Assembly: GCA_005772855.1 (NCBI GenBank)
Contig: SXIK01000241.1
Coordinates: forward strand, 1 to 64,000
Reading direction: 5' to 3'
Source: Planctomycetia bacterium
GTDB lineage: Bacteria > Planctomycetota > UBA8108 > SXIK01
DNA length: 64,000 nucleotides
Shown here: one piece after another, positions 9,395 through 12,000 of the stretch
How positions within the stretch are numbered: the first letter of the stretch is position 1
Layout of the letters: each line of letters opens with the position of its first letter
Made by a program: the position numbers and the translations under genes
Notes under the pieces: generated by a model
Seen by the model: the letters and a program-made list of their open reading frames with translations, nothing else
Told to the model about the DNA's origin: nothing
Database searches by the model: none

Positions 9395-9449
9395 GCATAG
9401 TAAGAAGCATCCTTGAAAAGAAGGTCCCTTGCGCGAAGGAGTCAACGTT

Positions 9450-9683
9450 ATGCCCACTGCCAAGCCCAGCGTATCCATCGAATTCTGCATGCAGTGAAAC
9501 TACAAACCGCGCGCGGTCAGTCTGGCCGACGCCATTGACAGGAAGTTCAAGGTTCGTCCCCGGCTGATTGAGGGGAAAGGCGGTGTCTTCGAGGTCGTGA
9601 GCCAGGGAAACCTCATCTTTAGCAAGAAAGCCACGGGGCGATTTCCCGAGAATGAGGAGATCTTGGAGCTGCTCTCGAAGTGA
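9450..9683 (+). CDS. SelW-like (Rdx family) selenoprotein with in-frame UGA
   Basis: An ATG with an AAGGAG ribosome site 8 nt upstream opens 77 codons if the TGA at 9495-9497 (codon 16) is read as selenocysteine. The context is C13-M-Q-U16-N-Y, the CxxU redox motif of SelW/Rdx proteins. Downstream are the family's PRAVSLADAI, GGVFEVVSQG and FSKKATGRFPENEEI. All downstream codons stay in frame to the TGA at 9681. Proteins of this family are small thioredoxin-fold redox proteins. A conventional reading would give a 15-residue peptide and leave the conserved part untranslated. The required SelA/SelB/SelC/SelD genes are not in this window. Confidence 0.85.
9498..9532 (+). promoter_or_regulatory. 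Candidate bacterial SECIS hairpin
   Basis: Just downstream of the UGA, CGGTC (9514-9518) pairs with GGCCG (9524-9528) around a five-base loop AGTCT. GCG and CGC extend the stem with one bulged A. The apical loop begins 21 nt after the UGA, within the range reported for bacterial SECIS elements, and contains a GU. The pairing is my own reading, not a computed fold. Confidence 0.5.
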
Positions 9684-9861: not shown

Positions 9862-12000
9862 TTGATGAACGACTCCACCTGGCATGCGTTGCGGGTGCTC
9901 GAGTATGAGCGCATCCGTGAGATTGTGGGCTCCTATGCGACAACGGCGCTCGGCAAGGAGCTGGCCCGCACGATGACTCCACTGCGGGCTGCCGAGGCGA
10001 TCCGAAAACGCCTGGCGCAGACGGAGGAAATGCGGACGCTCCTCGGGCGTTCGAGGCTGCCTCTCGCGGGGATTCACGACGTTGCCCGGGGTATTGATGA
10101 TGCGATTGCTGCGGGGCGTCCGGGTGAGCCGGAGCTGCTATATCAAGTCGTCGAGCTTTCCAGGGCCGCGCTGAGCGTCCGCGAGACTCTCACCAGGAAC
10201 CCTTCGGAGTTGCCTGGGCTGGCAGACATCGGCCTGGGGCTTGATGACTTGCCAGTCTTGCGTGAAAACATTCTGGCTTGCATTGACCCCAGAGGCGGCG
10301 TGTGTGATAGCGCGACCGAGAAGCTCTTGGGGCTCCGGCGTGATGCGGAGCAGCTTCGCACTTCGCTTCGTTTCCGCGCCACACGGATTCTCTCGGACTC
10401 GAAGCTCCGTCCTGCCTTTCAGTCGGAAGGCCTTACCTTCAAGAATGATCGTTATCTACTTCCTGTGAAGGTGGAATACCGCTCCTGGATTCGTGGCTCC
10501 ATTCGTGACCGTTCGCAGAGCGGTTCGACTCTGTACGTCGAGCCGGAGGAGCTCACGCAGGAAGGTGACCGTCTACTCGATGTTCTCGAAGCTGAACGGG
10601 CCGAGGTAACTCGTGTCCTCTGGGAGTTGACCCGGCAGGTGATCGCGTCCAAGGAAACCTTGCAGGCGACGCAGGACCGCCTGGCGCTGGTCGATTTCGT
10701 TGCTGCCAAGGCCGCGTACGCCGGGGCTTTTGGGCTGGTAACTCCAGAGATCAACGAAACGGGTTGTCTGGATCTGCGGGAGGTACGGCATCCGTATCTG
10801 CTGTGGCTTGCGCGCGATCAGCGAAGAGACTTGAGGGACGTCGATCTGGAGGCTGCACGAGCACGTGTCGTGCCAATAGATTTGCGACTGGGCGAGAACT
10901 TCCAGATCCTGGTGATCACGGGACCCAACACGGGCGGAAAAACCGTGGTGTTGAAGACTGCCGGGCTCAGTGTGCTGATGGCCCTGAGTGGTCTGGCCAT
11001 CGCGGCAGCGCCGGGTTCCAGGGTGCCCTGCTATCACGATGTTTTTGCCGATATTGGGGACGAGCAGTCGATCGAACAGAGCTTGAGTACGTTTTCATCT
11101 CACTTGAAGCACGTGATGGAGATCCTCGAGAAGGCCGATGACCGTTCCTTGATCCTTCTCGACGAGGTGGGCGCTGGAACGGATCCTCTGGAAGGGGCGG
11201 CACTCGGCCGCGCGCTCCTTGACAGGTTCCTAGCGAAGGGCTGGAACGCGGTGATCACGACGCACATCGGCAGCTTGAAGGAACTTGCATATTCGAGGGA
11301 CGGGGTCGAGAACGCAGCGATGGAGTTTGACCCCCGAACCCTGCAGCCGACCTATCGGTTGCTCCTTGGCGTTCCAGGCAGCTCGAACGCCCTTCTTGTT
11401 GCCCGTCGAATCGGGCTCGACGGTGACATTCTCGAGGCTGCGGAGCGTGAAATGTCGCAGGTCGAGGAGCCCACCCGGGAGATTCTCGGCCGTATGGAAA
11501 AGTCTCGCAGGCGGGTTGAGAAGGAGCGGCGGAGAGCTGAACGTGTCCGACGCAGGGTGCAGGGGGAAGCCAAGGTTTATGGGGATCGCCTGCGGGAAAT
11601 TGAGGCGCTGGAGGATGCTCTCGAGTCCGAGGCTCAACAGGTCATCGACGACTCCATACGGGGAGCGAAGGAGCAGCTTGCGGCGCTAGTAGCGCAGCTC
11701 AAGAGTGTCCCCAAGACACACAAGGCGGTCGTCGATACACTTGCCGCAGAGATCGACCGGCTCCTCGTGAGCACGCCGCTCGGGGCAAGAAGAGAGGCCT
11801 TCGCCCGCTCGCTCAAGAAAGAAGACGAGGTATACATCCCGAAGTTTCGTGACAGGGCGAAAGTCAAGAAGACGGACAAGGGTGGTCGCAAGTTGACGGT
11901 GCTGCTCAACGGGATTTTGATGGAGATTGGTTTTGATGACGTGTCGTGGATTGTCGGGCCTGCAGCTTACGGGACGGCGGGGAGTGAAGGACTAAAGTGA
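9862..12000 (+). CDS. mutS2: MutS2 ATPase without Smr domain
   Basis: Predicted 712-residue MutS2, known for suppressing recombination or rescuing stalled and collided ribosomes. It has the N-terminal core/lever region, the ABC ATPase with Walker A GPNTGGKT and Walker B LILLDEVGAGTDPLEGAA, a long Arg/Glu-rich coiled coil (residues about 530-620) and a KOW-like C-terminal segment. The C-terminal Smr nuclease domain, which brings typical MutS2 to about 780 residues, is absent; the protein stops after GTAGSEGLK and overlaps the next gene by 4 nt. The start is the TTG at 9862 or ATG at 9865, both after GAGGAG supplied by repeat A1. Confidence 0.93.
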   Translation: MMNDSTWHALRVLEYERIREIVGSYATTALGKELARTMTPLRAAEAIRKRLAQTEEMRTLLGRSRLPLAGIHDVARGIDDAIAAGRPGEPELLYQVVELSRAALSVRETLTRNPSELPGLADIGLGLDDLPVLRENILACIDPRGGVCDSATEKLLGLRRDAEQLRTSLRFRATRILSDSKLRPAFQSEGLTFKNDRYLLPVKVEYRSWIRGSIRDRSQSGSTLYVEPEELTQEGDRLLDVLEAERAEVTRVLWELTRQVIASKETLQATQDRLALVDFVAAKAAYAGAFGLVTPEINETGCLDLREVRHPYLLWLARDQRRDLRDVDLEAARARVVPIDLRLGENFQILVITGPNTGGKTVVLKTAGLSVLMALSGLAIAAAPGSRVPCYHDVFADIGDEQSIEQSLSTFSSHLKHVMEILEKADDRSLILLDEVGAGTDPLEGAALGRALLDRFLAKGWNAVITTHIGSLKELAYSRDGVENAAMEFDPRTLQPTYRLLLGVPGSSNALLVARRIGLDGDILEAAEREMSQVEEPTREILGRMEKSRRRVEKERRRAERVRRRVQGEAKVYGDRLREIEALEDALESEAQQVIDDSIRGAKEQLAALVAQLKSVPKTHKAVVDTLAAEIDRLLVSTPLGARREAFARSLKKEDEVYIPKFRDRAKVKKTDKGGRKLTVLLNGILMEIGFDDVSWIVGPAAYGTAGSEGLK

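Follow-up and report, generated by a model that had tools for sequence, protein, structure and literature searches.

Bacterial SelW-like selenoproteins had been described by 2005 (Zhang et al. 2005, PMC1088965; further 2006, PMC1794560, and 2008, PMC2398784), and they make up the most abundant selenoprotein family in both the Sargasso Sea (PMC1088965) and the Global Ocean Sampling data (PMC2398784). Proteins of the SelW family are usually inferred to act in thiol/selenol redox reactions (PMC1088965). Here we analyze a member of this family encoded in the window, that is, in the whole 64,000-nt stretch of DNA studied, which belongs to a Planctomycetota MAG (5.03 Mb, 244 contigs, 96% complete). 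Taken together, the evidence presented below makes it almost certain that this is a genuine SelW-like selenoprotein gene with a UGA-encoded selenocysteine (Sec) at position 16. The original prediction had called it an overlooked SelW-like selenoprotein. The selenoprotein part of that claim stands; the gene can hardly be called overlooked, since the family is known and the corresponding NCBI model is itself titled ‘(seleno)protein’. Only gene callers that take no account of Sec miss it, and annotation blind to Sec would truncate it at codon 15. The features discussed in the text are listed in Table 1.

Table 1. Features of the selW-like locus and related genes of the same genome. Coordinates refer to the window unless a contig is given.
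Feature	Location	Strand	Basis
Shine-Dalgarno AAGGAG	9436..9441	+	Sequence; 8 nt 5' of ATG 9450
SelW-like (Rdx) selenoprotein gene, CxxU, 77 residues	9450..9683	+	PF10262, NF041051, orthologues
UGA for selenocysteine, codon 16	9495..9497	+	Aligned UGA in relatives; Cys there in PDB relatives and G341
Bacterial SECIS hairpin (putative) GCGCGGUCA-GUC-UGGCCG(A)CGC, within coding sequence	9511..9532	+	Published model, covariation, codon constraint
SECIS apical loop GUC (G, then U)	9520..9522	+	Loop G in 37/37 orthologues
True stop codon UGA	9681..9683	+	Where Rdx homology ends
MutS2-type gene (MutS domain V), downstream neighbour	9865..12000	+	Pfam PF00488, 2.5e-27
SelD, itself UGA-containing at the usual site (CAG-U-ASKL)	L012, G000:C36:17289-18212	-	Sequence
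FdhA (formate dehydrogenase alpha subunit), UGA in NRT-U-HAPSV	L111, G000:C93:118779-120647	-	Sequence
Second Rdx gene, CEVG replacing CxxU	G000:C221:4283-4492 (L062 4175-4597)	-	

Reading frame, family and predicted fold

As originally predicted, the gene is preceded by a Shine-Dalgarno sequence, and its frame runs through a UGA to a second stop. From the ATG, the codon 16 TGA is the sole interruption before the terminal TGA. With this UGA read as Sec, the product is MPTAKPSVSIEFCMQUNYKPRAVSLADAIDRKFKVRPRLIEGKGGVFEVVSQGNLIFSKKATGRFPENEEILELLSK.

The Rdx/SelW pattern that had been noted on either side of the UGA is well supported by profile searches. The Pfam Rdx model PF10262 matches residues 8–76 (70.1 bits, E=1.8e-19, cut-off 22.6), and this match is unbroken across the UGA. 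NF041051, the NCBIfam model for SelT/SelW/SelH family (seleno)proteins, also scores above its cut-off (92 bits, E=2e-26, cut-off 88), as does TIGR02174. The CxxU motif, C13-M-Q-U16, follows the strand formed by residues 8–13, and both of its columns are invariant in the orthologue alignment. The AlphaFold model (mean pLDDT 84) has the order strand-helix-strand-strand-strand-helix and places CxxU at the end of strand 1. In a Foldseek search of the PDB it matches bacterial SelW-family crystal structures with TM scores of 0.83–0.89, in agreement with a PDB sequence search. The product is thus predicted to be a small thioredoxin-like (Rdx) protein with the SelW fold and, judging from family and fold, is most likely a small thiol/selenol oxidoreductase.

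The same data bear on whether the locus might consist of two translation units, a 15-codon leader ending at the UGA as a regulated stop and a second ORF behind it. At a bacterial Sec codon, insertion and termination usually compete, and a short product may indeed also arise. However, the UGA comes only after the first beta strand and the CxxU cysteine, and Rdx homology is continuous across it, which leaves a two-unit arrangement extremely improbable.

Downstream of the selW-like gene, after 181 nt, lies the MutS2-type gene, while the upstream neighbour is a divergent sodium:solute symporter gene. In the genome G001, selW is flanked by the same symporter and MutS2-type genes, the former being separated from it by a KDPG-aldolase-type gene. 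The stop codon of selW and the start codon of mutS2 overlap there as ATGA, and therefore the two genes may be co-transcribed in G001.

Selenocysteine decoding machinery

The original prediction implied that the genome should hold selA, selB, selC and selD, and all four were found. SelA (545 bits), SelB (353 bits) and SelD (347 bits) score above their curated cut-offs, and tRNA-Sec (66.4 bits) is above its gathering score and has the anticodon UCA according to ARAGORN. The decoding set is therefore complete rather than absent. Both SelD and FdhA are encoded with an internal UGA, which in FdhA occupies what we take to be the active-site position. Since the selW-like gene, selD and fdhA each contain a UGA, the genome has at least three selenoprotein genes. 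A hairpin with GGUC within the loop region is present in the selD gene, and the fdhA UGA is accompanied by a SECIS-like hairpin with the loop core CGGUCUG. A MoaA-like radical SAM gene (L003 364-1428; judged by eye) adjoins selA on the opposite strand.

A frame that stays open through UGA might also be expected if UGA were reassigned throughout the genome, for example to Trp or Gly, and coded for an ordinary residue. Against this, UGA terminates 14 of the 28 long nonoverlapping ORFs in the window as well as the selW-like gene itself, and the genome encodes tRNA-Sec together with SelA, SelB and SelD. Reassignment is accordingly a very unlikely explanation.

Conservation of the UGA codon

Conservation was assessed in a set of 59 relatives, in which the genome containing the window is itself counted. 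An Rdx match was detected in 36 of them, and in 35 of these 36 the gene has the UGA form; every UGA-form relative that was read residue by residue contains CxxU. Thus, instead of mutated or frameshifted copies lacking Cys or Sec at this site, UGA is kept in 35 of the 59 relatives, and Cys occupies the position in PDB relatives; the UGA coincides with the Cys/Sec site of the family. SelA is above the cut-off in 32 of the 35 UGA-form relatives versus 14 of the remaining 24. The three UGA-form genomes lacking a SelA match (G024, G027 and G048) are fragmented MAGs, and the missing SelA is probably due to their incompleteness.

A phylum-wide search with the paralogue described below as a query (E up to 0.001) matched 139 of 392 genomes, nearly all with one internal UGA. 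Where present in Planctomycetota, SelW is thus predominantly a selenoprotein. In G341 CxxU is replaced by CGGC, which provides a natural Cys/Sec pair. Beyond the phylum, UGA forms of SelW occur in Obscuribacterales, Desulfocapsa, KSB1, Marinimicrobia and one Actinomycetota MAG. The nearest named relative, L022, is a Planctomycetota MAG and matches the same-family genome G001. Comparison of the post-UGA sequence with L022 (dN 0.138, dS 1.22, dN/dS ~0.11) points to purifying selection on the region 3' of the UGA.

These results also settle the question of a pseudogene or sequencing error, in which UGA would represent a disrupted sense codon, whether for Cys or for another residue. Although TGA is a single base away from TGC and TGT, the reading is refuted by the conservation of UGA in independent assemblies: the same codon is UGA in 35 independent genomes. 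Purifying selection downstream and the conserved SECIS likewise speak against an error, the chance of which we regard as negligible.

The SECIS element

The hairpin containing GU, proposed originally as a candidate SECIS, was compared with a published bacterial SECIS model that specifies a loop of 3–9 nt, a stem of 4–16 bp, G in the first two loop positions, a distance of 16–37 nt from the UGA and a minimum free energy of at most -7.5 kcal/mol (PMC13188914). It fits the model in all respects, having GUC as its loop, a stem of 9 bp with a single bulge, a spacing of 22 nt past the UGA and an energy of -11.3 kcal/mol. The same model is passed by 11% of the 1968 UGAs in the window, and a simple implementation of it misses 7 of 37 orthologues, mostly by a small energy margin. 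Moreover, the folding energy of the hairpin is no better than that of shuffled sequence (z = -0.35). Single-sequence folding was therefore rejected as evidence, and the case for the SECIS rests on conservation rather than stability. A strict loop-motif scan of the window listed no UGA site, the selW-like SECIS also falling outside the motif (U in the stem where C is asked for). At the locus, Rfam gave only a sub-threshold match to RAGATH-10 (E 0.94), taken as chance.

Covariation was analyzed in 37 distinct gapless orthologues. Because RNAalifold recovered just 4 of 8 pairs from the orthologue alignment, the 8-pair hairpin itself was specified as the structure to be tested. Across the set, 87.8% of cells are paired, and the covariation score is 0.343, versus a shuffled mean of 0.171 and values of at most 0.128 when the structure is slid along the alignment. 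The loop overlaps a Ser/Gly codon (alignment columns 25–27, corresponding to window positions 9519–9521). Where this codon encodes Ser, it is AGU in 28 of 28 orthologues from several phyla, whereas AGU accounts for 79 of 927 Ser codons (8.5%) in the long ORFs of the window and, at other positions of these orthologues, for 26 of 180. Where it encodes Gly, it is GGU in seven of eight cases, against a background of 13.5%. The choice of AGU or GGU is not explained by protein-level selection, and that of AGU is imposed by the RNA. The loop core, (A/G)GU(C/U)UG, resembles CAGGUCUG of E. coli fdhF as well as CGGUCUG in FdhA from the same genome. Comparative support for a conserved SECIS downstream of the UGA is therefore strong. 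In addition, the 37-sequence set illustrates clearly how RNA structure can dictate the choice of a codon, the Ser codon AGU being fixed by the loop.

Proposed mechanism

Computation established the reading frame and its homology, the conservation of the UGA and of the SECIS, the complete machinery and the predicted fold. During translation, SelB with Sec-tRNA(UCA) would bind the hairpin 22 nt past the UGA, and Sec would be inserted at position 16. The product would fold into a thioredoxin-like (Rdx) protein, in which Cys13 and Sec16 would form the redox motif CxxU and would presumably cycle through a selenenyl-sulphide between the two residues.

A second SelW paralogue with a CxxG motif

The second Rdx gene of the genome has CEVG in place of CxxU. 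Its counterparts have CELG in G001, CVPG in G004, G006, G008 and G009, and SEPA in G003. Among the CVPG genes dN/dS is ~0.06–0.12, a range indicative of purifying selection. No conserved neighbourhood of the CxxG paralogue was found in the two genomes looked at. In the phylogenetic tree (43 rows, 74 columns) the Gly forms cluster together (87/76), then with the SxxA form (96/92) and then with the Sec form of G005 (90/84). This topology suggests that the Gly paralogue descends from a Sec ancestor, provisionally, as the tree has only 74 columns. The presence in this genome and its order of a paralogue in which Gly, not Cys, has replaced Sec was a less expected finding. Gly at a Sec site is not without precedent: Gly homologues of the FmdB selenoprotein have been reported in planctomycetes (PMC4807772).

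There is, in our estimate, an even chance that the order keeps two SelW lineages alongside its Sec machinery, namely the Sec form and a paralogue under purifying selection (CxxG, once SxxA) that would be monothiol or non-redox and act in binding or as a partner. If so, SelW can outlast its selenol without becoming a Cys protein. The CxxG paralogue would represent a natural test of the SelW role without the selenol.

Comparison with known systems

The window protein resembles the described bacterial SelW-like selenoproteins in its Rdx domain, in CxxU and in having the UGA followed by a SECIS inside the coding sequence, and differs only in the host lineage, here a Planctomycetota MAG. It passes the NF041051 cut-off, although the name of that model, SelTWH_Campy, points to campylobacters, a different phylum. 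The Cys-form SelW-related structures 2fa8, 2obk, 2oka and 2p0g have the same fold (TM 0.87–0.89, 28–33% identity) in longer chains; in the alignments, 2oka and 2fa8 have CxxC, with Cys where the window protein has Sec. Mouse SelW (2npb) belongs to the same fold family yet is distant (24% identity, TM 0.66). The eukaryotic SECIS sits in the 3' UTR. Overall, the selW-like gene adds a well-supported selenoprotein of a known family to a Planctomycetota lineage.
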